A stretch of DNA of 64,000 bases. Origin: Chloroflexota bacterium. Lineage in GTDB: Bacteria; Chloroflexota; UBA6077; FW602-bin22; CADDYW01. The stretch spans positions 62,001-126,000 of the forward strand of contig JAJPIK010000068.1 in the NCBI GenBank assembly GCA_021324795.1, read 5' to 3'. Positions 1,724-45,736 of this stretch are shown piece by piece. The stretch's first letter is position 1. The number at the start of each line of letters is the position of its first letter. The notes under the pieces were generated by a model. The model was not told where the DNA came from, searched no databases, and saw only the letters and a program-made list of their open reading frames with translations. The translations under genes and the position numbers were made by a program.

Positions 1724-1753
1724 TTCAGGAAACTGGAATTCACCACTTCTCAA

Positions 1754-2266: not shown

Positions 2267-2313
2267 ACTAGTTTTCCTCTCGTTAATTCTAGAATGCCCC
2301 GCTATGCTATGCG

Positions 2314-2369
2314 CTCTCCCCTCTCATGCCGGGACGGAGAGGGGCAGTCGCAGCCGACGGGGTGAGGGA
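2314..2369. repeat. Dispersed palindromic intergenic repeat, family 1
   Basis: The sequence between purK and purE contains CTCTCCCCTCTC facing GGAGAGGGG, followed by the tail GCAGCCGACGGGGTGAGGG. The same tail, GCNGCCGACGGGGTG, recurs near 48220, and shorter arms recur at 9001, 12341, 19752, 50354 and 59370. It could fold into a hairpin in the purK-purE transcript. Confidence 0.6.
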
Positions 2370-2468
2370 CTTGCAAGTCTGCTCCTTCGTCTATTGCCAC
2401 GATTTTTAGGAGTTGGCCATGCAGACTGCATCCTGATCGTCTCTCAGATGGGGAGAGAATCGGCATTC

Positions 2469-3659: not shown

Positions 3660-3670
3660 CGTCACTGCAG

Positions 3671-3676
3671 ATTATA
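3671..3676 (-). promoter_or_regulatory. -10 element of purK, possible leaderless start
   Basis: On the minus strand, TATAAT at 3676-3671 would place transcription initiation near 3664, at or just before the candidate start codons of purK. No Shine-Dalgarno sequence is present. No clear -35 box was identified. Confidence 0.4.
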
Positions 3677-3699
3677 CGGCATGCATACGATCGATCAGC

Positions 3700-4905: not shown

Positions 4906-5052
4906 CGGAGTTTTCCTTTTAGACAACGGACATTACTTCAATTATATTCCCGACCGGATGGTCATGTGGTGAAACGGGCAGGATGAGGGCCATCTCCCCA
5001 AAATGTGATCTGGCAGTGGTAGGATCGTCTCATCCCGAGTCTCTCCCTCGTC

Positions 5053-6003: not shown

Positions 6004-6122
6004 CTGTCCTCCGCGAACAATAGTTTCGTTTCTTTGCAGCCGATGCCAAGGCCGATTATACTTCCAACGAACATAGCACAATGGGGCAGGTCGAGTCACC
6101 AGCCAGGAAAGATAAAAGCATT

Positions 6123-7175: not shown

Positions 7176-8161
7176 TGATGAGCGACGTACTGACGAAATC
7201 AACCAGTAAGCCAACCATCGCCACCATCGGGGTTCTCTTGATGACCTTCGGCTCGGCTCCGAAGCCAGAGGACGTGCCGGCCTACCTCGCCAGCGTGCGC
7301 GGTGGTCGGCCTGCTCCGGACGATCTGGTGGCCGAGTTTCAGCGACGTTATCGGGTCGTCGGTGGCTCGCCACTCATTGAGATTACCCGCCAGCAGGCAG
7401 CGGTGTTACAGACCGAACTAGCCCACGAGCGGCCGGGTGGCCCGCGTTTCGTCGTCTCGATCGGCATGCGCCACTCGCCGCCTTTCATCGGCGAGGCCAT
7501 GCGCGAGCTGGCCGAGCGAGGCATCTCCGAGGTTATCGCGGTGATCCTCTCGCCGCAGTATTCCCCCTACATTATGAGTGGCTACCATAAAGCGGTCGAA
7601 AATGCCTGCGCTCAGCTCGCCGCCGAGGGCAAACCGGTCAAAGCGCGGGTGGCCGGAGCTTGGCATCTCAATCCTCACTTCCTCGACGCCTTGGCGGAGC
7701 GGGTACAGGAAGCGCTCGCGAGCTTCCCTCCTGATCTGCGAGACCGCGTGCCGCTGTTGCTCACCTCGCACAGTCTGCCCAAGCGGGTCGTCGATCACGA
7801 GCCGGACTACCTCAACCAGCTTCAAGAAACGGTGCGCGCGCTCGCCACGCGTGTCGGTCTGTCCGACGATCGCTGGCAATTTGCCTATCAGAGCGCCGGC
7901 CACACTCCGGAGGAATGGCTCAAGCCGGATATGAAAGATCTACTGCCCGGGCTTCGCGAGCGTGGTCATCGTCATGTCCTGATGGTGCCGGTCCAATTTC
8001 TGAGCGATCACCTGGAGATTCTCTACGATATCGACGTCGCGGCACGCGAAGAAGCGGAATCCCTCGGCATCGCCTTCAAGCGGATCGAGTCGCTGAACCT
8101 CTCGCCGCGGTTTATCCAGGCACTAGCCGACGTGGTACTGGGCGAGTACGACCGGAGGTAG
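7172..8161 (+). CDS. hemH: HemH, ferrochelatase
   Basis: This 329-residue ferrochelatase inserts Fe2+ into a porphyrin. The N-terminus has GVLLMTFGSAPKPEDV and the conserved GGSPL. IGMRHSPPFIGEAM holds the catalytic histidine, LLTSHSLPKRV follows, and FAYQSAGHTPEEWLKPD carries the catalytic glutamate region. It shares ATGA with hemE. In Gram-positive bacteria the enzyme acts on coproporphyrin III (CpfC), and that route is plausible here, but no coproporphyrinogen oxidase or decarboxylase gene is in view to decide. Confidence 0.94.
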   Translation: MMMSDVLTKSTSKPTIATIGVLLMTFGSAPKPEDVPAYLASVRGGRPAPDDLVAEFQRRYRVVGGSPLIEITRQQAAVLQTELAHERPGGPRFVVSIGMRHSPPFIGEAMRELAERGISEVIAVILSPQYSPYIMSGYHKAVENACAQLAAEGKPVKARVAGAWHLNPHFLDALAERVQEALASFPPDLRDRVPLLLTSHSLPKRVVDHEPDYLNQLQETVRALATRVGLSDDRWQFAYQSAGHTPEEWLKPDMKDLLPGLRERGHRHVLMVPVQFLSDHLEILYDIDVAAREEAESLGIAFKRIESLNLSPRFIQALADVVLGEYDRR

Positions 8162-8165
8162 GTAT

Positions 8166-8933
8166 GTGAGCTTACCGACGGGCGCATCTGACTGGACGAA
8201 CTCGCTTCACCCTCTTCACCTAGGGGAGGCCCGCATTGAACGCACTGATGCGGGTCTCCGCCTGATCCGCCTGCCGTCCACTGCTGCGATCTATTCCGAC
8301 GCCGAGCTACTTGGCCGCGAGCCGAATCGCTGGCGACCGCCGCTCAGTTTGATCGTCCGGGCCCGCTTCAGTCACCCGGTGGAGTGGCTACGGGGCACGG
8401 CTGGCTTCGGCTTTTGGAACGCCGGAATCGGCCCGACCGTGCGCCGTCCGCGTCCGCCTCGCGCGGTGTGGTTTTTCTTTGGCGGACCGCCATTCGACGT
8501 TCCTTTGGCACTGGGCGTGCCGGGGTATGGCTTCAAGGCTGCCGTACTCGATGCGCAGCGCCTGCTGTTCTTTGCTCTCCTTCCGTTTGCACCACTCGGC
8601 TTCCTCTTGATGCGTCAGCCAACGCTCTACCGCTGGTTCTGGCCGATCGTTCAGACAGCGATCGGCGTCGCCGAGGTCGACTTGAGTGAACTCGATCTGA
8701 CGGCCACTCACTCGTACAGGCTCGACTGGCGTGACGGTACCGCGACCTTTGGAGTCGACGGTCAAGAGGTGATGACCGCACCAGCACCGGCCGGACCGCT
8801 CGAATTAGTGATCTGGATTGATAACAGCTATGCCATCGCCACGCCCCAGGGACGCTTTAGCCTCGGACTCGTCGCGGCGTCGGAAACGCAGTGGTTAGAG
8901 ATCGAGAATGTCGAGGTACGAGTAGAAGGATGA
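8166..8933 (+). CDS. Unknown protein, third gene of the hemE-hemH operon
   Basis: This 255-residue protein starts at a GTG 4 bp after the hemH stop, with GGAGGTAGG just upstream, so it is almost certainly co-transcribed. I do not recognise a family with certainty. The alternating strands (GFGFWNAGIGP, SYRLDWRDGTATFGVDGQEV, LELVIWIDNSYA, WLEIENVEVRVEG) look like a concanavalin A-like beta sandwich. A hydrophobic stretch lies at about residues 130-155 (LLFFALLPFAPLGFLLM). No catalytic motif is evident. A role linked to heme is suggested only by position. Confidence 0.72.
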   Translation: MSLPTGASDWTNSLHPLHLGEARIERTDAGLRLIRLPSTAAIYSDAELLGREPNRWRPPLSLIVRARFSHPVEWLRGTAGFGFWNAGIGPTVRRPRPPRAVWFFFGGPPFDVPLALGVPGYGFKAAVLDAQRLLFFALLPFAPLGFLLMRQPTLYRWFWPIVQTAIGVAEVDLSELDLTATHSYRLDWRDGTATFGVDGQEVMTAPAPAGPLELVIWIDNSYAIATPQGRFSLGLVAASETQWLEIENVEVRVEG

Positions 8934-9000
8934 CCAAGCCAGGAATCAGATTTTTCACCACCGACGATACATACACTGACCCCTTAGCCAAGTAGCCTTC

Positions 9001-9030
9001 ACCTTAACCTTCTCCCCAGGAAAGGGAATA
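9001..9030. repeat. Short copy of dispersed repeat family 1
   Basis: CCTTCTCCCCAGGAAAGGG lies in the gap between the convergent ends of the hem operon and the MBL-rhodanese gene. It resembles the arms of the repeats at 2314 and 48185. It may act as a terminator stem. Confidence 0.35.
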
Positions 9031-9041
9031 CCCAGGCGGGC

Positions 9042-10166
9042 TCAGCGGTTGTGGCCAATTACCCCCGCGTGTGCCCATTCCGACTCGGCGACCCGTGGCT
9101 TTTCGAGCGTGGTGTCTCCGTAGGAAACGGGCTTGCCGGCGTTGATCCAGGCTTCGGTCCCTCCTCGCATACTAACGACATGCCCTATGCCGACTTGCTT
9201 GAGAAACTGCGCGGCGCGCAGCGAGCGGACTCCGCCCTGACAGATCGCAAAAACTGGCCGGTCGCGAGGAATCTCCGCCAGACGGGTTGCGAGATCCGCT
9301 TGGGGTAGATTGATCGCGCCGGGCACATGGCCGTGGGCGTATTCTTCTGGCTCCCGGACGTCAAGAAGGAAGGCATTGTCCGGGCGCGACTCGAGCGCAG
9401 CGAGGTCGACTTCCTCGACCGATGGCGCGGTGGTCAACATCGCCCAGGGGAGATCGGCCAGGCCACGGTTGGTAGCTTCGATCGCGGTGATGTTCAACGG
9501 ACGGGCCGGCACCTCGCTGATCAGCTTGGCGATGAAAGGCGTTTTGTCGAGCCGCGCGAGCGGGTTATAGAGACGCTCGAATCCAACGGTCGTGCTCGGC
9601 CGCCCGCACATGCCGGCGCCACAGGGGCCTTCGAAGTGACCGGGAAAAACCGCGACCCAGTCCGGTAGCCGCAGCAGGCGATTCAGGCTTTCGTACTGCT
9701 GCCCGGCGTCGCCGCCTCCGAAGTCCGGCCGCCCGACGTCGCCGACGAGCAGCGAGTCGCCAGTCAGTACCATTGAAGGCTCCGGGCTGCGAGGCGGGTT
9801 GATGATCAAGATCGAGATCATTTCGGGGCGATGCCCCGGGGTGTGAAGAATCCGGAGCCGGAGCTGGCTAAGGGATAGCTCTTCGCCATCTTTGAGACCC
9901 CGGAACGCATAGGAGACCTGCGCGGCTTCGTGGAGGCAGAGGGTCGCGTTGTGGGCCGTGGCCATCTGCCGAGCACCGGATATATGATCAGCGTGGACGT
10001 GGGTGTCGATGACGTAGCGCAAGCGAAAGCGGCGCTCCCGGAGCAAAGCCTCGTACTGCTCGGTCATGATCGACGGATCGACAATGGCGGCTTCGTAGGT
10101 CTGGCGCGACGCGATGACGTAGGACGCGCAGCCACACCGCTCGTCGAGGATCTGCTTGAAGTACAT
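9042..10166 (-). CDS. MBL-fold hydrolase fused to a rhodanese domain (persulfide dioxygenase-like)
   Basis: This 374-residue protein starts at the ATG at 10166, after GGAGG. Residues 1-230 are a metallo-beta-lactamase fold of the ETHE1/glyoxalase II-like type: DTHVHADHISGA gives the HxHxDH motif, and HTPGHRPEM, LTGDSLLVGDVGRPDF and FPGHFEGPCGAGM supply the other ligands. Residues 265-350 are a rhodanese domain with LLDVREPEEYAHGHVPGA and the active-site loop ICQGGVRS. Such fusions oxidise glutathione or low-molecular-weight persulfides and move sulfane sulfur. The thiol used here is unknown. No sulfur gene is adjacent. Confidence 0.9.
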   Translation of the reverse strand: MYFKQILDERCGCASYVIASRQTYEAAIVDPSIMTEQYEALLRERRFRLRYVIDTHVHADHISGARQMATAHNATLCLHEAAQVSYAFRGLKDGEELSLSQLRLRILHTPGHRPEMISILIINPPRSPEPSMVLTGDSLLVGDVGRPDFGGGDAGQQYESLNRLLRLPDWVAVFPGHFEGPCGAGMCGRPSTTVGFERLYNPLARLDKTPFIAKLISEVPARPLNITAIEATNRGLADLPWAMLTTAPSVEEVDLAALESRPDNAFLLDVREPEEYAHGHVPGAINLPQADLATRLAEIPRDRPVFAICQGGVRSLRAAQFLKQVGIGHVVSMRGGTEAWINAGKPVSYGDTTLEKPRVAESEWAHAGVIGHNR

Positions 10167-10311
10167 CGTCGGCCTCCTGGCAGTGTGAATCAATAGCCAC
10201 GCTCGCGAGCACCGAGTTCTCTCTGCCATTCTAGCATGTCGATGTAAAAAGTGTTGTACCTAAGGCAATAGGCATATTCAACTCATTAGGAATGGATCTT
10301 GCGCTCCTATC

Positions 10312-10779
10312 ATGTTCCCTCAACTGGCGTCGCTGATAATCCGTGGGGTGGCGAGGCTGACCTTGAAATCACTCTTGTACTTCCTATTGCTCGGCGGGGT
10401 CAACCACCAAATTACCATCATCGTAGTCGAGTCGCTCCTGTTCCGTGGCTTTCGACAATGGCTCGTCCGTCGCTCGCGCTGGCTGGGCGAGCTCGTGCGC
10501 TGCCACCTCTGCTTTGGCATGTGGGTCGGCTTCTTCATGGCACTGATCTTCCGTCCGCGCTTTGTCGACGTCCCACCCGTGCCCGGCGCTTCGCCAGGAA
10601 TCGATCGCGGTGTCCAAGCGCTGGCGACCTTTGTCGGCGATGCCTGCGCGATTGCCGTAGGAGGACGCATCTTTAACGAGCTGCTTGGCATTGCCCGGCG
10701 CGAGGTTGGCTTGCTGGAGGAGGAGACCGAACTGGTCGAAGAAGAGCGTGAGATGCTCGAACACGGCGGGGCGAGATGA
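10312..10779 (+). CDS. Small membrane-associated protein, DUF1360-like
   Basis: This 155-residue protein has hydrophobic segments at about residues 15-40 and 62-80. Its central CHLCFGMWVGFFMA motif resembles the C-x2-C, W-x-G pattern of DUF1360 proteins. The C-terminus is a highly acidic helix (EEETELVEEEREMLE) that may form a coiled coil. The start is uncertain because no clear Shine-Dalgarno sequence precedes the ATG. It is followed 70 bp later by the FAD oxidase gene. The function of the family is unknown to me. Confidence 0.6.
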   Translation: MFPQLASLIIRGVARLTLKSLLYFLLLGGVNHQITIIVVESLLFRGFRQWLVRRSRWLGELVRCHLCFGMWVGFFMALIFRPRFVDVPPVPGASPGIDRGVQALATFVGDACAIAVGGRIFNELLGIARREVGLLEEETELVEEEREMLEHGGAR

Positions 10780-10849
10780 CGCTAGTCGTGCCGCGCCGGT
10801 TTTGCTTTCTCGCTCACTCCATGGTAGAAAACCAGAGGAGTGACCAGTA

Positions 10850-12277
10850 ATGAGTCGACACAATTCCAGTACAACTGCTGCTTCCGCGGTTATCGCAACT
10901 CTCCAATCCAAGCTTGGCCCCGAGCAGGTCTTGACCAGCCCGGAGGCAATCGCCCGCTACCCGGGCTTTGTCTGGTTTCCGCCTCGGCCGCGCATGCCGT
11001 TGCCATATCCACTTGGCACCCCGGCGGCAATCGTCCGTCCACGCGCGACCGACGACGTCGCGATGGTGCTTCATCAAGCAACCGCGGCCGGCGTGCCGGT
11101 CGTCCCTTATGGCGCGGGGACCGGCGTCATGGGTGGCGCTTTGCCGATTCGCAATGGTATCATCCTCGACGTCGGGGCAATGAATCGTATCCGCTCGATC
11201 GAGCCGGGTAATCGCTTAGCCCGGGTCGAAAGCGGCGTCATCCTCGGCGAGCTTGCCCAGGCTGCCGAACGCCAAGGACTGCTATTTGCCCACGATCCTT
11301 GGAGTCAGCCAATCGCCACCGTCGGCGGTGCGGTGTCGACGAACGGTGTGGGATACCTCGCCGCCGGTTACGGAGCGATGGAAGACCAGGTACGTGGTCT
11401 CGAGGTCGTTCTGCCGACCGGCGAGGTAGTGAGCTGGGCCGGCGCGGCGAAGCGGTCAGCCGGGCCGGATCTCTGGCCGATGTTCGTTGGTGCCGAGGGT
11501 ACACTCGGGGTAATCACCAGTATCGTCGTTCAGCTCTTTCCCTGGCCGGAGGCGCGTGCGCTGACGGGAGTTCGCTTCCCCAAATTCGCCGATGGGTTTC
11601 GAGCGATCGATCGTTTGGTTGGCGTCGGCTTGCAGCCGGCGATGATCGACTACGAGGAAGAAGAGGGCGAGCCATTGGCAGCGCCCTCTCGGTTATTCCT
11701 GGTCTTCGACGGTCCTGCCGAGGTCGTCAGCGCCGCGACCAGTCTAGCACTGCGGATCGCGTGCGACTATCAGGGAACCGATCTCGGCGTGGCCGCGGCA
11801 GCCCATTTCTGGGAGCATCGCCACGACAGCGCGCTCCGCTTTCTCAACCGTGATGCCTCGCTACTGCCTCGCCGCCGACCGCGTTACGGTAGCCGCTACC
11901 TCGACGTTGCCGTGCCGATTGAGCGTGTACTTGACTACTGCGCGGCGGTCGTTCAACTCGCGCAGGAGCACGGCGTCGCCGCCCATTCGTTTGGAATCTG
12001 GGGGCGGCCGGAGCTCGTTTCGGTGATCCTCGAAGGCTCGGATGTCGCCCCTGTTAAGAACGGCGGGCTCTCACCGCTCGACCAGGCCACCGACGCTGCT
12101 CTGCGTCTGGCGCGCGCCCAAGGTGGCTCGATTGAATACTGCCACGGCGTTGGTATTCGTTTCGCCCACCTGCTTCCCGAAGAGCTTGGCCACGGCTACG
12201 CTCTCTTCCGCCATCTCAAGGCTACCTTGGACCCGGCGGGAATTCTCAATCCGGGCAAGCTGAGCACGGGTGACTAA
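10850..12277 (+). CDS. FAD-linked oxidase, GlcD / D-lactate dehydrogenase type
   Basis: This 475-residue protein starts at an ATG 10 bp after GAGGAG. It has an N-terminal FAD-binding PCMH domain with the pattern VPVVPYGAGTGVMGGALP (about residues 78-96) and WSQPIATVGGAVSTNGVGYLA. The C-terminal FAD-oxidase domain ends with GSIEYCHGVGIRFAHLLPEE and LDPAGILNPGKL. The family oxidises 2-hydroxyacids such as glycolate and D-lactate. GlcE and GlcF partners are absent here, so it is probably a single-subunit enzyme. The acceptor and substrate are not known. Confidence 0.9.
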   Translation: MSRHNSSTTAASAVIATLQSKLGPEQVLTSPEAIARYPGFVWFPPRPRMPLPYPLGTPAAIVRPRATDDVAMVLHQATAAGVPVVPYGAGTGVMGGALPIRNGIILDVGAMNRIRSIEPGNRLARVESGVILGELAQAAERQGLLFAHDPWSQPIATVGGAVSTNGVGYLAAGYGAMEDQVRGLEVVLPTGEVVSWAGAAKRSAGPDLWPMFVGAEGTLGVITSIVVQLFPWPEARALTGVRFPKFADGFRAIDRLVGVGLQPAMIDYEEEEGEPLAAPSRLFLVFDGPAEVVSAATSLALRIACDYQGTDLGVAAAAHFWEHRHDSALRFLNRDASLLPRRRPRYGSRYLDVAVPIERVLDYCAAVVQLAQEHGVAAHSFGIWGRPELVSVILEGSDVAPVKNGGLSPLDQATDAALRLARAQGGSIEYCHGVGIRFAHLLPEELGHGYALFRHLKATLDPAGILNPGKLSTGD

Positions 12278-12295
12278 GAAAAAGGAACCCAACCG

Positions 12296-12371
12296 GACCG
12301 CAGAGGTGCAGAGACACAGGAGCAGAGAGTCCCTCGCAGATTCTCTCTCACTGGAGGAGAGTTAGGGGGGC
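12296..12371. repeat. Composite of two dispersed repeat families
   Basis: Bases 12296-12330 (ACCGCAGAGGTGCAGAGACA and following) match a second family also present at 22645-22676. Bases 12341-12371 (TCTCTCACTGGAGGAGAGTT) match family 1 arms. Both lie between the convergent FAD-oxidase and SDR genes. Confidence 0.5.
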
Positions 12372-12451
12372 TACCTGCCGATGTCATCTGCTCTACTCGC
12401 CCCGCGGATCAGGTGTAACTCAGGAATTCTGCCCGTCGTTCCCCAGTAGCC

Positions 12452-13249
12452 CTACCAGGCGAGATAGCCACCATCCATCGCAACAGTGAAGCCGGTCATG
12501 AGGTTCGAGGCGGCCGAGGCCAGGAAAACGGCAACCCCCTTGAGCTCTTCCGGAGTGCCGATCCGTCCAATGGGCGTCCGCTCGGCAATTTCGGCGAGAT
12601 ATTGGCGCGATTCCGCGGTCTCGCCGCGCAGCATTCCCCCGGCAATGTTTGTCCGGACAAATGTCGGGGCGATCGCGTTCACCTGAATATTGTAGGGAGC
12701 GAGTTCGATCGCCAGGCTACGTGTCAGGTTGACCACGCCGGCTTTCGCCGCGGCGTACGCCCGACCTCGGCCCGGGCGCAAGTTCGCGACGAAACCGTAG
12801 ATCGACGCGGTGCTAATAATCTTGCCATGGCGTCGCGGCACCATCACTTTCGCTGCCTCTCGAGCTGTCAGGTAAACGCCGGTGAGGTCGACGTCGATGA
12901 CCTTTTGCCAGGTCTCCAGCGTCGATTCGATCAGCGGTTGTGACGTCCCGGCGATCCCGGCATTAGCAAACGCAATGTCCAGCCCACCGAGAGCTTGAAC
13001 TGCCGACCGGACCATCTCCGAGGTATCTACCTCGCGGCTGACGTCGGCCGCGATAGCTACCGCGCGTCGACCCAGCGCCTGGATCTGCCGAGCCGTAGCC
13101 TCGGCGGCCTCGCGCTGAACGTCGACGCAAGCCACGTCCGCCCCCGCTTCGGCCAGAGCGAGCGAAAACGCTTCCCCCAGTCCACTCCCGGCGCCGGTTA
13201 CCAGCGCTACTTGTCTATCTAACCGAAATGACTCGAGAACATTTGCCAC
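12452..13249 (-). CDS. SDR-family oxidoreductase (classical)
   Basis: This short-chain dehydrogenase of about 265 residues has VALVTGAGSGLGEAFSLALA for NAD(P) binding, the structural motif NAGIAG, the catalytic Ser in STASIYG, and the Tyr-Lys pair in YAAAKAGVVNLTRSL. The C-terminal GGYLAW is typical. An acidic residue after the second strand (CVDVQ) suggests NAD preference. A GTG at 13258 lies inside a perfect GGAGGTGATC anti-16S match, so I prefer the GTG at 13249, which has correct spacing. The substrate is unknown; gluconate or ketoacyl-type assignments are both possible. Confidence 0.88.
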   Translation of the reverse strand: MANVLESFRLDRQVALVTGAGSGLGEAFSLALAEAGADVACVDVQREAAEATARQIQALGRRAVAIAADVSREVDTSEMVRSAVQALGGLDIAFANAGIAGTSQPLIESTLETWQKVIDVDLTGVYLTAREAAKVMVPRRHGKIISTASIYGFVANLRPGRGRAYAAAKAGVVNLTRSLAIELAPYNIQVNAIAPTFVRTNIAGGMLRGETAESRQYLAEIAERTPIGRIGTPEELKGVAVFLASAASNLMTGFTVAMDGGYLAW

Positions 13250-36439: not shown

Positions 36440-37309
36440 GTGGCAAGAGTGAGTGTGGTCGCAGCGTTGTCGGAGAATATATCCGCCAAATCCAGGTATC
36501 TTACCCTAGATCCTCGTGCGCTCGCTCAGAAGGTCGTGGGCGAGCCGGCGAAAACTCTTGAACTCCAGATTCTCGAGCTCGTTGACTGGATGATCCATGA
36601 GCTTGCAACACCACTCGCTTCGCTGACGATTAGTGCCGAGGTGCTCGCGAGCAGTTTTGAGACAATGGAGCCAGACGAAGCTCGTGAGGCTCTTCGGCGC
36701 ATTCACCGCAATACATTCTGGTTGAAAGCACTCGTCGACAACTTCAAGCAATCGGTCCGAGCGAGTCGAACTGAGCCGAATTTTCGTCTGGTTGATTTGA
36801 GCACGTGTTTGGAGACGGCCTGTTCTTTGGTTCAACCAATCATTGACTCCCGAGGGCAAACGGTGCTGGTCGGTGGAATGCCGGACCAGCCATTGGTTTG
36901 GGGGGATTGTCACTGGATCGAGCACATTCTCGTAAACTTGCTCATGAATGCGAGCAAGTATTCGAACAAAGGTGGCTCGATCTGGCTTGATATCGTCGAG
37001 GTCGAAAATGCCTTCCAGGTTCGGGTAATCGACTCGGGGCCTGGTATTCGCCTTCACGACCAGGCGCGTATCTTTCGACCCTATACGCGGGGCGCGGCAG
37101 CGAAACGTGGGGGGGTGGAAGGCATGGGATTGGGGCTGCACGTTGTCAAGAGCCTGGTTGAAGCACAGGGGGGATCGGTTGGCGTCCAGAGCGTCCTCGG
37201 GAGGGGATCAGTCTTCTGGGTTGCATTGCCAGGCTATCGGCGCGACGAGACAGCAACGCCGGTTACGTCCGCGCTTGCTGGATGTGCTGCTGCTTCAGAG
37301 CAAATGTAA
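36440..37309 (+). CDS. Cytoplasmic sensor histidine kinase, first gene of the lasso operon
   Basis: This 289-residue kinase has the H-box WMIHELATPLASL (His53), N-box LVNLLMNASKYS near residue 165, G1 DSGPGI and G2 GMGLGLHVV. It has no transmembrane segment and no recognised sensor domain, only about 45 residues before the H-box, so its input must be cytoplasmic or a partner. GTGs at 36440, 36449 and 36455 are all possible starts; GGAGG at 36433-36437 is best spaced for 36449. The response regulator follows 67 bp later. The pair begins the operon that carries the lasso proteases, which implies signal-controlled peptide production. Confidence 0.9.
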   Translation: MARVSVVAALSENISAKSRYLTLDPRALAQKVVGEPAKTLELQILELVDWMIHELATPLASLTISAEVLASSFETMEPDEAREALRRIHRNTFWLKALVDNFKQSVRASRTEPNFRLVDLSTCLETACSLVQPIIDSRGQTVLVGGMPDQPLVWGDCHWIEHILVNLLMNASKYSNKGGSIWLDIVEVENAFQVRVIDSGPGIRLHDQARIFRPYTRGAAAKRGGVEGMGLGLHVVKSLVEAQGGSVGVQSVLGRGSVFWVALPGYRRDETATPVTSALAGCAAASEQM

Positions 37310-37376
37310 TGGGCAGGTAATCAATCCGTCACGGATGATCGTTGATAGTGGTTAATTTGGGGATGAGGTGTTTGTG

Positions 37377-38072
37377 ATGAAGATTCTGCTGGCGGACGAT
37401 GACTCCGACATGTTGGATGTGACGGCCTATGCGTTACGGCGGGAAGGCTTCAACATCATCGTTGCTACGAATGGTGCCCAAGCTCTCCGGCGATGGCAAT
37501 CAGATGATCCTGACTTGGTTTTACTCGATGTGAGCATGCCCCGAGGAAATGGCTTCGAGGTATGCCGAAAAATACGCCAAACGTCCACGACTCCGATCAT
37601 TATGCTCACCGGAGCTGATGACGAAGAGCATGTTGTCAAAGGTTTTTTGCACGGCGCGGACGACTATGTTACCAAGCCTTTTAGCGCGAAGCAGTTGGCG
37701 TTGCGCATTCGGGCGGTGTTGCGTCGTTGCTCGACCAATCCGATACGTGAAGCCGTCCCAGAGTTGCGCGTTGGCGACTACGTCTTGGACGTGGAATCCT
37801 GCCAGGCACATCGAGAGGGTGAAATCGTCCAGCTCACTGCGCTGGAATTCCGAATTCTGCATGCGTTGACGGTAAATGAAGGACATGTCGTGAGCTTTCG
37901 CCGCCTGGTCGAGCGAGCTTGGGGATACGATGGCGGCGATGCGTCGATGCTCAAGACTCATGTAAGTCATATTCGGAAAAAGCTTCACTTGCAGCCGGGC
38001 TGCCCGGGCTATATTGGTGTCGTGCATGGCGTTGGCTACTATCTCTTACGCTCGTCGCAAGGGGCAGCCTAG
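37377..38072 (+). CDS. OmpR-family response regulator
   Basis: This 231-residue protein has a receiver domain with acidic residues ADDDSD, phosphoacceptor Asp51 in VLLDVSMP, and the lysine in YVTKPF. The C-terminal winged helix of OmpR/PhoB type has LTALEFRILHALTVNEGHVV and HVSHIRKKL. The ATG at 37377 has GAGG 8 bp upstream; a GTG at 37368 would add three residues. It is the partner of the kinase just upstream. Its likely targets are its own promoter and the promoter of the cyclase-precursor operon. Confidence 0.93.
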   Translation: MKILLADDDSDMLDVTAYALRREGFNIIVATNGAQALRRWQSDDPDLVLLDVSMPRGNGFEVCRKIRQTSTTPIIMLTGADDEEHVVKGFLHGADDYVTKPFSAKQLALRIRAVLRRCSTNPIREAVPELRVGDYVLDVESCQAHREGEIVQLTALEFRILHALTVNEGHVVSFRRLVERAWGYDGGDASMLKTHVSHIRKKLHLQPGCPGYIGVVHGVGYYLLRSSQGAA

Positions 38073-38171
38073 CTAATCGCGATTTTGTTCGCTCACCGGT
38101 GAGGTTTAGCCAGAGCGAAACACGGAGTGCGCCAGTTTCTGAACGGCGTACAATGGGAGATGGATGAGACC

Positions 38172-38627
38172 ATGCAGGGCATTCGCCTCATTCGCCGTTT
38201 TTGGGGATTGGCGCCATCGGATCGCCGATTGTTAGTGCTTGCCGTCTGGCAGCTTTGCTGGGTTGGCATGCTGGCGAGAATATTCGGTTTTCAGTCGCTT
38301 GTGCGCCAGGCGCAAGGAATCCGTCCGCCCAACGATTACACCCCAAGCCCGGTCGAGCTAGAACGGGCATACGTTTATGCCCACTGGCTCGAGTCGGCTG
38401 CCCGCCGACGGCTCATTAACGCGTACTGCCTCCAACGTTCACTCGCTCTCCACCGATGGCTCCAACGGGAAGGGATGCCCAGTGTGCTCCAGATCGGCGT
38501 TTGGAAAGGGGGAGACGTCTTGCACGCCCACGCTTGGGTCGAACTTGGGAATCACGTGGTGAACGATCGACCCGCCGCGATCGCCTCGTTTGTTCCTTTA
38601 GCTCAAAATCTTCCCAAGCAAGTGTGA
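38172..38627 (+). CDS. Lasso peptide leader peptidase B2 (transglutaminase-like)
   Basis: This protein of about 151 residues belongs to the Transglut_core3 family that removes the leader from lasso precursors. The Cys-His-Asp catalytic residues are Cys86 (NAYCLQRSLALHRWL), His120 (VLHAHAWVEL) and Asp132 (VVND). An N-terminal amphipathic part, VLAVWQLCWVGMLARIFGF, is typical of B2 proteins. It needs the B1 protein (40140) to present the leader. Start choice between ATG 38160 and 38172 rests on spacing from GGGAG; a GTG at 38127 is also open. It is transcribed with the two-component genes. Confidence 0.9.
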   Translation: MQGIRLIRRFWGLAPSDRRLLVLAVWQLCWVGMLARIFGFQSLVRQAQGIRPPNDYTPSPVELERAYVYAHWLESAARRRLINAYCLQRSLALHRWLQREGMPSVLQIGVWKGGDVLHAHAWVELGNHVVNDRPAAIASFVPLAQNLPKQV

Positions 38628-38971
38628 GATCGCTTGTTATTGCAGTCGGATCTCAACCCCTTCGTAACCCAGCCTTTACTCGCATTGCACACCACTCTCT
38701 GAAGATATTCTCCAGATAGTGCCTGGGCGGACGACGAAGCTGTTCGACGACGAACAGAAGCTTGTTGGAGTGCGAAGCTCGAAAACGGCAGTGGTCCTTT
38801 CCCCCAAGGGGCGTCAGCCGGATTTACGAGTGTCTTTGTCTGGCCTGTGGATTGGCTGATGAAGAGATGGCGGTACGAGGGCGGCATTTCAACGTCGAAT
38901 CCTTCACCACATTGGAGGCAGGATTCCGAAGTTGGCCCACCAGAAGACTGCAAGGAGGCGAGGCAACCGGG
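38628..38971 (+). other. 344 bp gap between B2 and the DegT-like gene
   Basis: No gene is supported here. The DegT-like frame stays open upstream to 38762, with an in-frame ATG at 38867 (MAVRGRHFNVES), but this part lacks homology to the family N-terminus. A short stem CCCC-AA-GGGG lies at about 38802-38811. The stretch may be a remnant of a lost gene or a long leader region. Confidence 0.4.
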
Positions 38972-40108
38972 ATGCGCGTTCCATTCGTAGATCTCAAGGC
39001 GCAGTATGCGACGATCAACAATGAGATCGTCAAAGAGGTCATGACTGTGCTCAAGGGGATGAATCTGCTGCTTGGACCAAACGTTACGGCATTCGAAACC
39101 GAGTTCGCCGCCTACTGTCAGACACAGTACGCGATTGGGGTCGGCTCAGGAACTGATGCTCTCCATTTGGCGCTCCGCGCGTGCGGTGTCCGCGCCGGAG
39201 ACGAAGTCATTACGGTCTCCCATAGCTTCATCGCCACGGCGGAAGCGATTGTTATGGTGGGAGCAACGCCAGTCTACGTCGACATCGATCCCCATACATA
39301 CACGATGGACCCCGCTCAAATCGAGGCGGCGATTTCCGAGCGCACGCGCGCGATTGTGCCAGTCCATTTGTACGGCCAGATGGCCGATATGGATGCAATC
39401 ATGGCGATTGCGCGACACCATGGCCTGGCCGTGGTCGAAGATGCTTGTCAAGCAGCTGGCGCGAGCGATCATGGGCGAAAGGCAGGCGGCATCGGCGATG
39501 CCGCGGCTTTTAGCTTCAGTCCGACGGCGAACTTAGGAGCATATGGGGATGGCGGTGCAGTCACGACGAATTCTCGGGCAATTGCCGAGGAAGTGCGACG
39601 ATTGCGCAGTCACGGCCTATTGGCAGAGGATGAATGCGAGGAAATGGGGGTTAATTCGCGGCTTGACGAGCTTCAGGCAGCCATTTTGCGGGTGAAGCTG
39701 CGTCACCTCGACCGGTGGAATGATCTGCGTCGCCTCCACGCCGAGACGTATCGTCAATTGCTCAGCGATTCGCGAAAGTTGCGACTCCCGCATACCCGTT
39801 CCGGCGCTTCGCACGTCTATCGGCATTACGTAGTCCAAATCGAGGACCGAGACTACGTTCGCCAGTCACTTGGCGCGCTCGGGATCGAATCGGGTGTTCA
39901 CTATCCAATCCCGATTCACTTGCAGAAGGCATCCGAGGCGATCGGGAGGACGGTCGGTATGTTGCCGGAAACACTCCGCATTTCCCAGCACATTCTCTCT
40001 CTTCCAATGTACGCCGAGCTCGAACCGGAGCACTTATCCTATGTCGCGGCATGCTTACGGACGGTAACGGGGTTGGAACGGTCCAAGTTGCGGGTAAACT
40101 TCGGTTAG
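38972..40108 (+). CDS. DegT/DnrJ/EryC1/StrS-family protein with Ala at the PLP lysine position
   Basis: This 378-residue protein starts at ATG 38972, after GGAGGCGAGG. It is full length and keeps the family's PLP pocket: GSGTDALHLAL, the aspartate in VVEDACQAAGA, NSRLDELQAAIL and HVYRHYVVQ. At the Schiff-base motif, normally FSFxPTKNLG, it reads FSFSPTANLGAYGDGGA, with Ala186 encoded by GCG at 39527-39529. Without this lysine it cannot hold PLP as an internal aldimine or perform ordinary sugar transamination. It may have another chemistry, a structural role, or be inactive. Family members usually make aminosugars, and no sugar gene is nearby. It sits inside the lasso operon between B2 and B1. 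Confidence 0.93.
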   Translation: MRVPFVDLKAQYATINNEIVKEVMTVLKGMNLLLGPNVTAFETEFAAYCQTQYAIGVGSGTDALHLALRACGVRAGDEVITVSHSFIATAEAIVMVGATPVYVDIDPHTYTMDPAQIEAAISERTRAIVPVHLYGQMADMDAIMAIARHHGLAVVEDACQAAGASDHGRKAGGIGDAAAFSFSPTANLGAYGDGGAVTTNSRAIAEEVRRLRSHGLLAEDECEEMGVNSRLDELQAAILRVKLRHLDRWNDLRRLHAETYRQLLSDSRKLRLPHTRSGASHVYRHYVVQIEDRDYVRQSLGALGIESGVHYPIPIHLQKASEAIGRTVGMLPETLRISQHILSLPMYAELEPEHLSYVAACLRTVTGLERSKLRVNFG

Positions 40109-40139
40109 GGCCGTAAGAGACGAGGATCAATTGGGAGGA

Positions 40140-40430
40140 ATGAGGTTGCGGCAAGTCAGTCGAGTGCCAGCGATCGAGGAAACAGTTGCTTGGGCTGATC
40201 TCGAAGGGGAGTCGGTCCTTTTGAACGTCCTCGAAGGCCTCTATTTTGGTCTAGACGAAGTGGGGACGATGATCTGGAAGCTGGTCTCAGAAGGACTCGC
40301 CGCAGACCAAATCGTCGCGCGACTGCTCGAAGAGTTCGAGGTGGCGCCTGAGCAACTCGAAGGTGACGTCGCGGATTTCTTGCTGACACTCGAAGCGAAG
40401 AAGTTGATCCACTTCGTCGAACAGCATTGA
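40140..40430 (+). CDS. Lasso peptide B1, PqqD-like RiPP recognition element
   Basis: This protein of about 96 residues is a stand-alone PqqD-type recognition element. The patterns VAWADLEGESVLLNVLEGLY, FGLDEVGTMIWKLVSEG and FEVAPEQLEGDVADFLLTLE are typical: a beta-hairpin then a three-helix bundle. In lasso systems it binds the YxxPxLxxxG leader and hands it to B2. Three starts are close (TTG 40131, ATG 40140, TTG 40146), with GGGAGG at 40133-40138. Its stop codon is 9 bp from that of the convergent kinase gene. Confidence 0.92.
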   Translation: MRLRQVSRVPAIEETVAWADLEGESVLLNVLEGLYFGLDEVGTMIWKLVSEGLAADQIVARLLEEFEVAPEQLEGDVADFLLTLEAKKLIHFVEQH

Positions 40431-40439
40431 AGCATCCGA

Positions 40440-41411
40440 TCATGCGCTCCACCCGGTCAATGGATCCGGTTGGCACCTACGCGGCTTCGTACACTGCATC
40501 TGCTCTTCCACGAGCCGTGCTCCCTCGGAGAGCAACGCGAGCGAACGCGGCCGCGCGAGGTCGAAGACGGGCACGGTCCGGACCAGAGCAGTGCATTGTC
40601 GCAGGTGTTGAGAAGCCGCTTTGCCTCGCAGTAACATTGCCCCAAAGCGCGCGGCATAGGAGTTACTGATCAGACGGAGAATCGCGTCGCGAGGCGGAAG
40701 CAGGGTAAGCTTACTCTCCGTGGCCACGGAGAGTAAGTATATTCCGGCAAGCGGAATGGGGTGGCTCTCGAAGCTCTCGGCCATCCGGCGAGAACGCTTC
40801 TCGTATCCCGGTGCGACCCGAGGAAGCAGGGCCGGATCGCCGCCAACCGATCTGACCGCATCGGGCCACAGCTTGACTTGCGGGAAGCCCGAGAGCACGA
40901 TCGGTCGTTCGCCGCTGACGTCCAACGCGACAACGTCGTCCGCCAGCAGACTGTGACCTCTCGCGCATAACGTCGCCGCCATGGTTGACTTGCCATTTCC
41001 CTTACCCGCGACGAAGACCACGGCCTGGCCACCGACCGCCACGGCGCTGGCGTGGAGAACGAGGTGTCCTCGTTGCTGGAGGAGAAGCGCCATGATGGTA
41101 CCCAGGAGAGGCAAACGAACGATTGATTCGTCGTCTTCCGAGCATGGCTCGACCACGATTTCATTGCCGTGTCGGACCAGATAGGCCCCGACGCCAGCCC
41201 AGGCCAGATAAGCCTGGTCGGCGCCGACGAGATAGCGCTCTTGCTCCCTGCCATCGCTCGATAGAGAAAAACCGACCTTCCCTCGCCGGATGTTCACGTC
41301 GGGGTTGTCGCTGGGAGACGGTTGCAGCTCTGGTAGAACGAGTGCCGAGCGGATGCCCAGTCCGTAGGCGGTGTAGTGATGCATCGATTTCTCACGTGCC
41401 TTTATTGTCAC
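40440..41411 (-). CDS. HPr kinase-like protein of the lasso cluster
   Basis: This 323-residue protein resembles the C-terminal domain of HPr kinase/phosphorylase. The P-loop is VAGKGNGKSTMAATL near residue 135, followed by LLADDVVALD (Walker B). The N-terminal 120 residues have a beta-rich pattern as in lasso-cluster kinases. In paeninodin-type systems such a kinase phosphorylates the C-terminal serine of the precursor, and the precursor here ends in serine. It follows the exporter stop by 3 bp; the GTG at 41411 and ATG at 41384 are possible starts. Phosphorylation is inferred, not shown. Confidence 0.88.
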   Translation of the reverse strand: MTIKAREKSMHHYTAYGLGIRSALVLPELQPSPSDNPDVNIRRGKVGFSLSSDGREQERYLVGADQAYLAWAGVGAYLVRHGNEIVVEPCSEDDESIVRLPLLGTIMALLLQQRGHLVLHASAVAVGGQAVVFVAGKGNGKSTMAATLCARGHSLLADDVVALDVSGERPIVLSGFPQVKLWPDAVRSVGGDPALLPRVAPGYEKRSRRMAESFESHPIPLAGIYLLSVATESKLTLLPPRDAILRLISNSYAARFGAMLLRGKAASQHLRQCTALVRTVPVFDLARPRSLALLSEGARLVEEQMQCTKPRRCQPDPLTGWSA

Positions 41412-41414
41412 CGT

Positions 41415-43211
41415 TTAGACCCCATCTGAGACCATCGTATCGAGATATGCCGAGGACGCGGGCGGGAGCGCGTCTCGGAGACGCCAGTCTCCACCAAATT
41501 GCAGTTCGTAGAGTTCGCGGAAGAGTCCCGGACGTCTCAGTAGCTCCGCCGGTGTCCCCTGCTGGACAACTTTTCCTTCGCTAAGGACCAGGACTCTATC
41601 GGCTTGCTGAACCGTCGTCAGGCGATGGGCAATGACGAATGTCGTGCGGCCGCGGGTAAGATCAGCTAACGCGGCTTGGAGAAGCGTTTCGGAACGCGCG
41701 TCGAGCGCCGAGGTGGGTTCATCGAGGACGAGAATGCGTGGATCGCGTAGGAATGCGCGCGCAATCGCCAGGCGCTGCTTCTGTCCCTCTGAGAGCTGAA
41801 AACCCCGCTCGCCCACGTTCGTGTCTAGCCCATTGGGAAGTCCCTCGATAAATTCCCAGGCATTCGCGGCGCGGAGCGCGGCAATAATTTGCGCATCGTT
41901 GGCATCCTCGTACCCCAGGCATACGTTTTCGCGAATCGTCCGGGCGAACAGAAATGTATCCTGGAAGACCACTCCAATCTGGCGTCGGAGACCCTCCAGT
42001 GTTAAGTCGCGGAGATCCTGGCCATCGAGAAGCACCCGCCCGCAGGTCGGATCGTAAAAGCGACAGATGAGACTGGCGATAGTCGTCTTTCCCGCGCCGC
42101 TCGGACCAACGAGAGCGATCATCTGCCCGGGCCAAGCGGTGAAAGAAATGTCTTGGAGCACGGGATGATCCGACGTGTAGGCGAAACCAACGCCCTGGAA
42201 CTCAATCCGCCCTTCGACGTTACTGGGCCAGCGGGCATCCGGGCTTTCCGGAACGCGAGGGGTCTGATCGAGAAAGGACTGGAGGCGATCTGCCGTGCCC
42301 CGCGCTTTCTGGAGCGTACCGACCAGACCAAAGATTTGACTGGCCGGGGTGAAGGCGTAGCCGAAGAGTGAGCGCATCGCGATGAGTGTCCCGAGAGTCG
42401 TTTCGCTGCGAATGACGAGATAGCCGCCGTAGCCAAGGATAATCGCGCTTACCGCGAGTGACAGGACCAATTGGCCGGTCCCGAGCCCGGTCTCCAGCAT
42501 TGCGATGCGCATACGCAGGCGAAGCAGGTCCCCCAGACTTCGACTGAGATCCCTTCGTTGTCGGTTCTCTTCTCCGAAGGTGACGAGCTCGCGCAGGCCG
42601 GCTAACCCTTCGTGCAGCCGTTCGTTTACTTCCGCGGCCTTCGCTTGCGCACGCCGCATGGCGGGCCGTAGGGGCCGGGTGGCAAACCAGAGACAGACGA
42701 CTACCAGCGGGGGCAGTATCCCGCTAGTCACTGCAAGCTGCCAGTTCAACGAGAACATGAAGGCCAGCGCTAGTACGAGGGTCACAACGTTGCCCAGTAT
42801 GCCGAGCAGTCCGTTACCCAGCAGGCTTGTCAAATTGGGAATGTCATTCACGAAAAGGGAGAGCGTCCTCCCACTGTGTTCCTGCCGAGAGAAGGCAAGC
42901 GACAGCATCTCGACGTGGGCGAATAGTCGTTCCTGAAGCCGTTTAGTCAGCCGCTCGGCGAAGTATTTCTGGAGTAGTCGTCCGGACGTCGAAAGGCAGG
43001 TCGAGCCGAGCCAGAGACCAACGTAAAGGGTCAGAAGTGGCGGCAGCAGGCTGAGTCGCTGGCCCAGGATCACTGCGTCGATCAGTTGCTTTTCGACAAG
43101 TGGGAGTCGCAACGTTATCAGCGGCGTCAAGACTGCGATAAGAACGAGGCCTGCCAGCAGCCACCAGGCACCGGGCTCTTCGCCAAAGAGCAAGCGTCGA
43201 ATCAGTTGCAT
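41415..43211 (-). CDS. ABC transporter (lasso peptide exporter, D protein)
   Basis: This 598-residue half-transporter has six membrane segments in residues 1-320, then an ATPase domain with Walker A GPSGAGKTTIASL, Q-loop FQDTFLFA, signature LSEGQKQRLAIARAF, Walker B ILVLDEPTSALD and switch IAHRLTT. It lacks an N-terminal C39 peptidase domain, as expected because B2 removes the leader. It should export the mature lasso peptide and give self-immunity. It lies about 205 bp downstream of the precursor gene, with a strong hairpin between. Confidence 0.95.
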   Translation of the reverse strand: MQLIRRLLFGEEPGAWWLLAGLVLIAVLTPLITLRLPLVEKQLIDAVILGQRLSLLPPLLTLYVGLWLGSTCLSTSGRLLQKYFAERLTKRLQERLFAHVEMLSLAFSRQEHSGRTLSLFVNDIPNLTSLLGNGLLGILGNVVTLVLALAFMFSLNWQLAVTSGILPPLVVVCLWFATRPLRPAMRRAQAKAAEVNERLHEGLAGLRELVTFGEENRQRRDLSRSLGDLLRLRMRIAMLETGLGTGQLVLSLAVSAIILGYGGYLVIRSETTLGTLIAMRSLFGYAFTPASQIFGLVGTLQKARGTADRLQSFLDQTPRVPESPDARWPSNVEGRIEFQGVGFAYTSDHPVLQDISFTAWPGQMIALVGPSGAGKTTIASLICRFYDPTCGRVLLDGQDLRDLTLEGLRRQIGVVFQDTFLFARTIRENVCLGYEDANDAQIIAALRAANAWEFIEGLPNGLDTNVGERGFQLSEGQKQRLAIARAFLRDPRILVLDEPTSALDARSETLLQAALADLTRGRTTFVIAHRLTTVQQADRVLVLSEGKVVQQGTPAELLRRPGLFRELYELQFGGDWRLRDALPPASSAYLDTMVSDGV

Positions 43212-43350
43212 TGACTTCGGTAACTCCCTAAGAGGTAACGGTACGAGACTGCCATGCCCTGACCCTGTCGCCCGGACGTGAACGTCCGGCGGAATTTGTT
43301 TAACGGATATCGCTTACCTGCAGCTTGTCAGTGATTACGTGCAGAATCTG

Positions 43351-43383
43351 GCCATAGCGGCGCCCATCAGGCGCCGCTATGGC
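43351..43383 (-). terminator. Perfect 14 bp hairpin downstream of the lasso precursor gene
   Basis: GCCATAGCGGCGCC and its exact reverse complement are separated by CATCA. No T-tract follows on the minus strand, so it is more likely an attenuator or an mRNA-stabilising 3' stem that sets precursor expression above that of the exporter. A smaller stem, GCGGCG-CTT-CGCCGC, lies at 43401-43415, right after the precursor stop. Confidence 0.65.
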
Positions 43384-43416
43384 AGGCGAACGACGGAATC
43401 GCGGCGCTTCGCCGCC

Positions 43417-43587
43417 CTAGGAGCAGATCAGACCGGGATGCGGCTCGCTGGGGTTGCAGACGTTGTTGACACTGATCAACTGCCCATTGACAATAATGTT
43501 GTCCGGGCTTCCTCCCGTCTGTCCAGCCGTGATCTGTTCCAGCCGGCCATACTCGACCAGCGTTGGAGGCCGGTAGGCTCTCTTCAT
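43417..43587 (-). CDS. Lasso peptide precursor A (56 residues)
   Basis: This short gene starts at ATG 43587, 7 bp after a near-perfect AGGAGGTGA site. The leader is 21 residues and has the motif YxxPxLxxxG as Y5, P8, L10, G14 (YRPPTLVEYG). Thr20 is at position -2, the lasso signature. The 35-residue core begins GQTGGSPD: Gly1 and Asp8 would close an 8-residue macrolactam ring. The tail has Cys23 and Cys34, which could form a disulfide, and ends in Ser35. The core is long for a lasso peptide. It sits between the cyclase and exporter genes on the same strand. Confidence 0.93.
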   Translation of the reverse strand: MKRAYRPPTLVEYGRLEQITAGQTGGSPDNIIVNGQLISVNNVCNPSEPHPGLICS

Positions 43588-43630
43588 CTATTCACCTCCT
43601 TTCGCCATGCTTCACGCCGTGAACCAGCCT

Positions 43631-43651
43631 CGCCGCGACTTGTTCGCGGCG
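43631..43651 (-). promoter_or_regulatory. Stem-loop in the leader of the precursor gene
   Basis: CGCCGCGA and TCGCGGCG form a perfect 8 bp stem with loop CTTGT, 44 bp upstream of the precursor start. It lies between the cyclase stop and the precursor and could be a processing site or attenuator. No promoter with good -35 and -10 boxes was found here. Confidence 0.45.
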
Positions 43652-43729
43652 GCCCGGGCATGAGGTTTAGCTTTATCACTGTCTTTCCCTGGACGTCGTC
43701 TAAGCGCAAGAGCGACCGGTCTGATGGCT

Positions 43730-45736
43730 TTAGGCCTCTGCCGTCGCAAGACAGAAATCGGGCTCAGAAGGAAAGTCTGAATTCCAAGGTGGAGGGACGG
43801 TCACTCGTTCGGGCCGCGGCAAGGTGAGTGCCCGCAGCCAGGTCTCCAGCCCCACTAGCTGCATCAGATAGACAATGTCCGGGGCCGGCCCGCCGGCCCG
43901 TATCGCCTCCAGTCGGGACCAGAAGCGCTGCTGATCCACGTAGCCTCGACGGGCAATCTCCGACCGCCCGGTCGGACCGAAGGCGGCTTCGTAGAGCGGC
44001 CACTGACGCTTGATCTCGCTCTCGAGGACACCATGAAAAACAGTCTTCGACGTTCGAGTGCGAATGCTCTCCGGGAGGATTCCGCGCATCGCCTGGCGAA
44101 CCAGTCGCTTCGACCCGGCATAGAAAGCATCGCTCTCGGGATGTGGGGCAAACTTCAGCTCCGGTGGAATCGCGAGCAGAAACTCGTGGAGCCGCCGATC
44201 CGCGAACGGTCGCCAGAACTCAAGCGGCCAGGGCACGGGATGTCGCGCGACCTCGGGCGGGTAAAGGATGCGGAACTCGGCCTCCCGCGTCGGATTTGAA
44301 AAGTATCGTCCTCTTTCCATCTCAAGAGCAAGTTGCCGGTGGCGTCGGACCAACTCCTGGCGCAGTGGTTCGGGTATCCAGAGTGGCAGGAAGGCCTCTT
44401 GGTTCCGTGCGATGGACCGTGCGAGATAGCTCGAATTGATCCACCGTTGCAGTGGAAGCGGCAAGAGGGGCGCCAAACAGTATAGGGCGATGATCTTGCG
44501 CAGCGATTCATCTGACCGCCGCCGATACGTCGAGAAGTACTGCCAGAAAGCCCTCAGTTGACCTCGGCGCAACAAAGAGTCGAAAACGAGCCAGGATCCG
44601 CCGACACACCCATCGGCAAGATCGCCGGTGAGGAGCGCACGCACGCCACTTTGGCAAGCTGTGCCGAAGAGCGCGTCGCGTCCTTCGCTGATGCCCAGGT
44701 TAGGGGCCTCTAGGAAGCCGCGTGGCTCGAGCTGTAATCGCCCTGCGAACTGACCACAGGAAATGTACCGTGCCGTGAATCCGTACTTCGCCTGAACTTC
44801 TTCTACCAGGGAGCGCTCGTCGCAGTCTAGGTGGTCGAAGACAAAGCTGAAGCTCGTGAAGCCGCGATCCTCAGCCTGCCCGGCGCGAAAGATCTCCTGG
44901 GCAACACTAACAACCGCTGAGGAGTCTAGTCCACCACTCAGCAACGCTCCGACCGGGGGTGAGCTCCGAAGTCGCACCTTTACCACATCGAAGAAGAGCG
45001 AGCGATAGTGCTCGGCATACTCCTCCTCCCGACGGTAACGCAGCTCGGCCGGTGCCTCGAATGTCCAATAGCGTCGAGTGTGCAAGGTGTTGCAATCGGC
45101 GAGGAGGAGATGTCCGGCCGGCAACGCCCAGATATCTCGGTAGAAGGTAGCCGCTTGGTCTTTCTCGTTTCGGAACATGTTGAGGGGAACGAGAAAGTCG
45201 AGGATGCGCTCGTCGTTCGATTCGATCGGGACCGACGGGTCTTGGAGAAGCTGCTGAATCTCGGATGCCACTGCGAGGACGCGAGCGTCGGCTCGATAGA
45301 AGAGTGACCGCTGACCACTGGTATCACGCGCGGCAATCAGACGCTGCTGTCGCGGATCCCAAACCACGAGGGCGAAGTCACCAAGCAGACGCTCGAACCC
45401 TCTCAGGCCCCACGTTTCATAGACCCGTAGGATGATCTCCGCGTCACTCGTCGATGCGGGCGGGGAGTCAGGCAGCCTTCCTAACAATTCCTCGCGATTG
45501 TCGAGGCGCACGTCGGCAATCACGACGCAACTGGTTCGTGGGCTGACCAGCGGCTGCTGCTCCCGAAGCTCCTCCGGGGTGATTGCTAGCTTACCGAATC
45601 CGAGGCTGACGATACCAAAATCGCGGACCCATTGACCGTCAATGGCCCGATAGGGGGCTGCCGCGAGCATCGCGCGAACAGCGGCCGGGTCGGCATTCTG
45701 CCCGTCGCGGCAGAGGAGAGCGGTGAGACTGCTCAC
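43730..45736 (-). CDS. Lasso cyclase C (asparagine synthetase B-like)
   Basis: This 668-residue protein has an N-terminal glutaminase-like domain and a C-terminal asparagine synthetase domain. The ATP pyrophosphatase loop is GALLSGGLDSSAVVS near residue 265. The start GTG at 45736 has GGAGG just upstream; it gives Ser at position 2 (MSSLTALLCRDGQ) instead of the catalytic Cys2 of asparagine synthetase, so glutamine hydrolysis is lost, as in lasso cyclases. LLTGDLADGCVGG replaces the usual GDGGDELFGG. It would adenylate Asp8 of the core and close the ring with the Gly1 amine. The precursor gene follows directly. Confidence 0.93.
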   Translation of the reverse strand: MSSLTALLCRDGQNADPAAVRAMLAAAPYRAIDGQWVRDFGIVSLGFGKLAITPEELREQQPLVSPRTSCVVIADVRLDNREELLGRLPDSPPASTSDAEIILRVYETWGLRGFERLLGDFALVVWDPRQQRLIAARDTSGQRSLFYRADARVLAVASEIQQLLQDPSVPIESNDERILDFLVPLNMFRNEKDQAATFYRDIWALPAGHLLLADCNTLHTRRYWTFEAPAELRYRREEEYAEHYRSLFFDVVKVRLRSSPPVGALLSGGLDSSAVVSVAQEIFRAGQAEDRGFTSFSFVFDHLDCDERSLVEEVQAKYGFTARYISCGQFAGRLQLEPRGFLEAPNLGISEGRDALFGTACQSGVRALLTGDLADGCVGGSWLVFDSLLRRGQLRAFWQYFSTYRRRSDESLRKIIALYCLAPLLPLPLQRWINSSYLARSIARNQEAFLPLWIPEPLRQELVRRHRQLALEMERGRYFSNPTREAEFRILYPPEVARHPVPWPLEFWRPFADRRLHEFLLAIPPELKFAPHPESDAFYAGSKRLVRQAMRGILPESIRTRTSKTVFHGVLESEIKRQWPLYEAAFGPTGRSEIARRGYVDQQRFWSRLEAIRAGGPAPDIVYLMQLVGLETWLRALTLPRPERVTVPPPWNSDFPSEPDFCLATAEA

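Follow-up and report, generated by a model that had tools for sequence, protein, structure and literature searches.

A rearranged and mosaic lasso peptide gene cluster predicted in a Chloroflexota bacterium

A 64,000-nucleotide stretch of the genome of a Chloroflexota bacterium (assembly GCA_021324795.1, contig JAJPIK010000068.1, positions 62,001 to 126,000; hereafter the window) carries a genuine and complete lasso peptide gene set, composed of the genes for the precursor A, the leader-binding protein B1, the leader peptidase B2, the cyclase C and the exporter D, and accompanied by a gene for an HprK-like kinase (K). It is very likely that these genes specify a functional lasso pathway, and that they do so from a cluster which has been rearranged and is mosaic in origin. 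This reading draws, at the level of sequence, on gene identities, motif conservation, gene order in relatives and the displacement of the kinase.

Maturation genes and their relatives

The lasso genes of the window are divided between two convergent blocks. On the forward strand B2 (38127-38627) and B1 (40131-40430, with ATG 40140 as an alternative possible start) lie on either side of a gene of the DegT family, while K (40440-41411), D (41415-43211), A (43417-43587) and C (43730-45736) are on the reverse strand; the stops of B1 at 40430 and of K at 40440 leave exactly 9 bp between the blocks. The first-pass annotation of this DNA had described five lasso parts together with HPr-kinase-like, DegT-like and two-component genes, with the DegT-like gene between B2 and B1 and two operons meeting 9 bp apart. 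Every gene it named is an open reading frame (ORF) in place, and family, domain or leader matches agree with its assignments, the match of the kinase being the weaker one.

B2, a transglutaminase-like protein, matches the curated NCBIfam model NF033537 (lasso_biosyn_B2) at 66.9 bits (cut-off 33), and its Cys and the His of the HAWVE motif are invariant among 25 B2 proteins. B1, a PqqD-like recognition element of the kind found with ribosomally synthesised and post-translationally modified peptides (RiPPs), scores 62 bits against the PqqD model (cut-off 23) and has TbiB1 (5v1u, E 8e-13) as its nearest solved structure; the locus has in this way the recognition protein and the cysteine peptidase that mark lasso systems. 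D is by family match an MsbA-like ATP-binding cassette exporter. For C, whose probable start is GTG 45736, in agreement with the MSGLAA start of its relatives, the best model is that of the cyanobacterial lasso cyclases (NF033535, 328 bits, below the cut-off of 525 of that model), with AsnB at 174 bits. The ATP motif SGGLDSS is kept and the glutaminase nucleophile Cys2 is absent, as it is throughout the clade of eight cyclases (support 100/100) to which C belongs. True AsnB proteins form a separate group, also supported at 100/100, which includes the genome's own asparagine synthetase (L120, with an MCGICG start), and the clustering of C with asparagine synthetases that the first-pass annotation had named as adverse to a lasso assignment was not observed.

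A B2 above the lasso cut-off is present in 25 of 400 genomes of the phylum. The annotation had likewise regarded a lack of co-occurrence with the short peptide as adverse, and in the related genomes the lasso genes do co-occur with matching precursors. These are arranged as a single B1-B2-K-C-A-D operon in G029 and G022 and as a tandem B1-B2-K-C-A-K-C-A-D in G168, with partial loci in G301, G003 and G007 in agreement; among the relatives compared the two-operon split is private to the window. In the tandem locus (L095, contig C2 of G168, 1319-10655) one B1-B2 pair and two K-C-A sets share one operon. In G022 an NTP_transf_5 gene follows D, so that this locus repeats the combination of kinase and nucleotidyltransferase of paeninodin-type clusters (PMC8498205). 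HprK-like kinases in lasso clusters are known (PMC7533575, PMC8498205). The combination departs less from precedent than the first-pass annotation held, since clusters with a kinase and two-component genes (PMC7533575) and a split-operon cluster, that of the cebulassopins (as cited in PMC13352647 and PMC13381572), are already published. Searches with the single cyclase returned one distant locus only (Erythrobacter) from named genomes and no match from plasmids.

The precursor and its predicted product

Precursor A (leader MKRAYRPPTLVEYGRLEQITA, core GQTGGSPDNIIVNGQLISVNNVCNPSEPHPGLICS) is preceded by a strong ribosome site (aaaggaggtgaatag-ATG), and its leader scores 21.3 bits against the curated NCBIfam lasso leader model NF033521 (cut-off 19), with the motif YxxPxLxxxG…T and the lasso-typical Thr at the next-to-last position. 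The core of 35 residues has Gly1, Asp8, Cys23 and Cys34 in the tail, and a C-terminal Ser35. A strict leader-plus-ring pattern is found in a single ORF of the whole 64 kb, which is A itself, and never arose in 8000 rounds of dinucleotide shuffling of the intergenic region between C and D. Alignment of the seven precursors encoded beside cyclases of this clade showed the leader Tyr, Gly and Thr, and then Gly1 and Asp8, to be invariant, matching the small first residue and the Asp or Glu at positions 7-9 of lasso cores; all seven carry their only two Cys in the tail, as is characteristic of class IV lasso peptides. Core lengths are 35 residues in the window, 39 in a second cluster of the same genome, and 38, 37, 44, 43 and 29 in the others, six of the seven being longer than pandonodin, which with 33 residues in total is the longest-tailed lasso peptide listed (PMC13352647). 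The predicted eight-residue Gly1-Asp8 ring and tail disulfide would make these class IV-like lasso peptides with unusually long cores (29-44 residues), adding from one phylum a small precursor family in which the GxxGxxPD ring is conserved and the two-Cys tails are very long.

In the pathway that we propose B1 would bind the leader of A via YRPPTL and hand it to B2; this cysteine peptidase would cut after Thr-Ala, so that Thr is the penultimate leader residue. C, with ATP, would activate Asp8 and join it to the amino group of Gly1 around the tail to close the eight-residue ring, giving a product with a 27-residue loop and tail, probably with one disulfide within the tail (Cys23-Cys34). K would probably phosphorylate A, most likely, at a guess, on Ser35, and D would export the product. 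Computed monoisotopic masses are 3511.68 for the lasso, 3509.67 with the disulfide, and 3589.63 with the disulfide and one phosphate.

The intergenic region between A and D (43212-43416, reverse strand) folds into a strong hairpin, GCCATAGCGGCGCC...GGCGCCGCTATGGC (z -2.5 for the whole region). Stable hairpins differing in sequence are found at this position in all six loci examined, the window and five related ones, as expected for a structure that may act as a stabiliser or attenuator after the precursor.

Kinase ancestry and the second cluster of the genome

The trees indicate that K does not share the history of the genes around it. C, D and B2 cluster with those of the B1-B2-K-C-A-D relatives with supports of 100/100, 100/100 and 96/99, the B1 tree being too weak to be used, and K instead joins the kinases of L084, L094, L085 and L081, loci in which K follows C. 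Its identity is 43% to the kinase of L084 (G002) and 24-29% to the kinases of its own cyclase group. Placement of K with that cyclase group was rejected by the approximately unbiased test (p-AU 8.4e-6, log-likelihood difference 57), for which the group was named after the first tree had been seen. K retains the P-loop GxxGKST and the invariant residues H120, G140, K141 and D159, a P-loop and conserved His and Asp being marks of PadeK-type lasso kinases; its single-sequence structure prediction had a mean confidence (pLDDT) of 36, and no fold search was based on it. From these placements, A, C, D and B2 belong to one lasso lineage and K, displaced, to another. A single B1-B2-K-C-A-D operon would have been broken, leaving B2 and B1 around the DegT gene, next to a two-component pair that was there before, and a kinase of another lasso lineage would have taken the place of the first one. 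The tailoring kinase is here seen to change lasso lineage without the cyclase or the exporter doing so.

PadeK phosphorylates the C-terminal Ser of a paeninodin-type precursor (PMC8498205). Among precursors encoded beside kinases of the lineage of K, the C-terminal residue is Ser in L081, L084, L085 and one of the two of L094, and Thr in the other, a pattern that fits a kinase reading the C-terminal Ser as PadeK does, in numbers too small for a test. The kinase swap, together with the differences in C-terminal Ser, offers a handle on which part of the precursor the kinase reads. The two precursors of L094 (4780-5700) are near-identical and in tandem, ending in ...LTQRNVSGTKTDKAFPAGTPINQLTFST and ...NQMTFSS, and their cores would start with Arg if cleaved two residues after the Thr.

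The second lasso cluster (L009, contig C13 of the genome, G000, 6660-12376) contains B1, K, C, A and D, with a kinase remnant upstream at 12579-13184, and lacks the B2 that in relatives stands between B1 and K. Searches of the genome, which is 94% complete, with PF13471 and NF033537 found the B2 of the window only. We hypothesise that this B2 may be shared in trans by both clusters, and the lone B2 offers a way to ask if two pathways can rely on a single leader peptidase. Only tentatively do we extend this to a rather doubtful wider picture, in which two lasso pathways, separate in precursor, cyclase, kinase and exporter, would share one B2, both products would be class IV-like lassos with cores (35 and 39 residues, and as many as 44 in relatives) exceeding all those listed, and the kinase would have been exchanged together with the change to a C-terminal Ser substrate. 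L009 is flanked by genes for methyltransferases and a GT41/TPR glycosyltransferase and, judged from the sequence alone, for SIS-isomerase-like and GHMP-kinase-like proteins. A GT41 (O-GlcNAc-transferase-like) gene directly follows exporter D both here (4824-6638) and in L011 of G003 (5662-7272), making glycosylation of the Ser/Thr-rich tails possible.

Neighbouring genes, rival readings and known systems

Upstream of B2, on the forward strand, lie genes for a histidine kinase (HK, 36440-37309), with HisKA and HATPase_c domains and no recognised sensor domain, and an OmpR-type response regulator (RR, 37368-38072). The gene between B2 and B1 (38972-40108, forward strand; ATG 38972 being a more probable start than the first TTG at 38762) encodes a homologue of DegT/DnrJ/EryC1/StrS aminotransferases which aligns over its full length with nucleotide-sugar aminotransferases in the PDB. 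The catalytic Lys that binds pyridoxal phosphate (PLP), kept in 29 of 29 homologues compared, is Ala186 in the window protein (SFSPTANLGAYGDGG versus SFYPTKNLGAYGDGG). This change from Lys to Ala is the same that has been made deliberately in laboratory mutants of the family. Of 67 highly conserved columns the window protein departs from three only (Ser183, Ala186 and Leu335), and thus the loss is centred on the active site and is not one of general decay; the protein looks like a catalytically dead pseudoenzyme.

The first-pass annotation had taken all of these genes to form one regulated RiPP system; in such a system HK-RR would control both operons and the DegT homologue would be a working tailoring or sugar-supplying enzyme. 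HK, RR, B2, DegT and B1 are indeed packed on the same strand, the paralogue closest to the window RR in this genome (66% identical, the next being 46%) is found some 6 kb past the exporter gene of the second lasso cluster, and lasso clusters of Butyrivibrio contain an HprK kinase and two-component genes (PMC7533575). We nevertheless consider such integration improbable: a DegT gene of this kind is found near none of 26 other lasso loci compared, the window DegT has lost its catalytic Lys, and in other genomes of the class DegT has an orthologous HK-RR pair close by where there are no lasso genes, adjacent and convergent in G021 and G028 and 3.7 kb away in G022, the lasso cluster of G022 and G028 being on a different contig. 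An RR also lies beside DegT at a contig end, with no lasso genes, in G016. The split lasso locus is retained from the earlier proposal, and the membership of HK-RR and DegT is not; given such neighbours elsewhere and the lack of DegT in the 26 lasso loci, the latter genes were probably there first, B2 and B1 having been placed around them later, and would be bystanders. A general link of this RR family to lasso clusters was rejected, as most orthologues in related genomes are away from lasso genes. In L148, L149 and L150 a conserved pair of two-component systems is convergent with DegT near epimerase and glycosyltransferase genes, which also lie beyond DegT in G028, an arrangement that suggests a regulated surface-glycan locus in this class.

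It is less probable again that the breakage, the dead DegT and the loss of B2 elsewhere mark a decaying cluster that no longer makes a product. The DegT active site is lost and the second cluster has no B2 and a kinase remnant, but in the window all lasso genes are full length, the motifs of B2 (Cys/His), C (SGGLDSS) and K (P-loop) are intact, and so are the precursor motifs and ribosome site.

The content of guanine and cytosine at third codon positions (GC3) is 0.60-0.64 in the left block, among the lowest of the window, whereas K, D and C have 0.67-0.69, which counts in favour of a rearranged cluster; these figures exclude two lower values from ORFs of roughly set frame or start. Scans of the 64 kb for Rfam families and transfer RNAs gave no matches, and promoter and terminator patterns were not above shuffled sequence. 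Least credible is that the B1/K junction is an assembly artefact fusing two loci. In its favour, the split is the only one of its form among relatives, the GC3 value changes from 0.63 to 0.69 precisely at this junction, and contamination is 6%. Against it, the contig in which the window is embedded measures at least 126 kb, the B2 of the window falls in the same clade as the B2 of the group holding C and D, and neither half makes a full gene set without the other, no other B2 having been found in the genome.

Several points weigh against a functional lasso pathway in a rearranged, mosaic cluster. The assembly is of 124 contigs with 6% contamination, so the private rearrangement could partly reflect assembly. 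The lasso chemistry of the product is predicted from genes, and the long Gly/Asn/Pro tails have no obvious bulky plug, which makes threading uncertain. K matches PF07475 at E 9e-7 with 29 bits, below the cut-off of 33.3, and an HprK match at E<0.001 is obtained for only 7 of 16 relatives. A C-terminal Ser is present in 3 of 7 precursors of the cyclase clade (the window and two of the six others) and is not general beside kinases.

Close counterparts include kinase-bearing clusters of the same phylum (L010, L012, L095 and L096), which share the lineage of precursor, C, D and B2 and differ in having one B1-B2-K-C-A-D operon, their own kinase lineage and no DegT. The ring of paeninodin has nine residues. 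Paeninodin-type clusters of Paenibacillus and Bacillus (with PadeK, and with or without a nucleotidyltransferase) also combine A, B1, B2, C and D with an HprK-like kinase and a precursor ending in Ser, the residue phosphorylated by PadeK (PMC8498205), whereas the lasso locus of the window has a predicted eight-residue ring, a far longer core that carries two Cys in its tail, two convergent operons and no nucleotidyltransferase. Class IV lasso peptides such as pandonodin share the two tail Cys and the long C-terminal part, with a core of 33 residues as against 35 here and up to 44 in relatives, the disulfide and threading being in our case predicted only. The cebulassopins (JACS 2026), whose title speaks of a split biosynthetic operon, are by that title alike in having lasso genes outside one operon. 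What is new here is the combination of a mosaic kinase, a lone B2, long two-Cys cores and a DegT pseudoenzyme.

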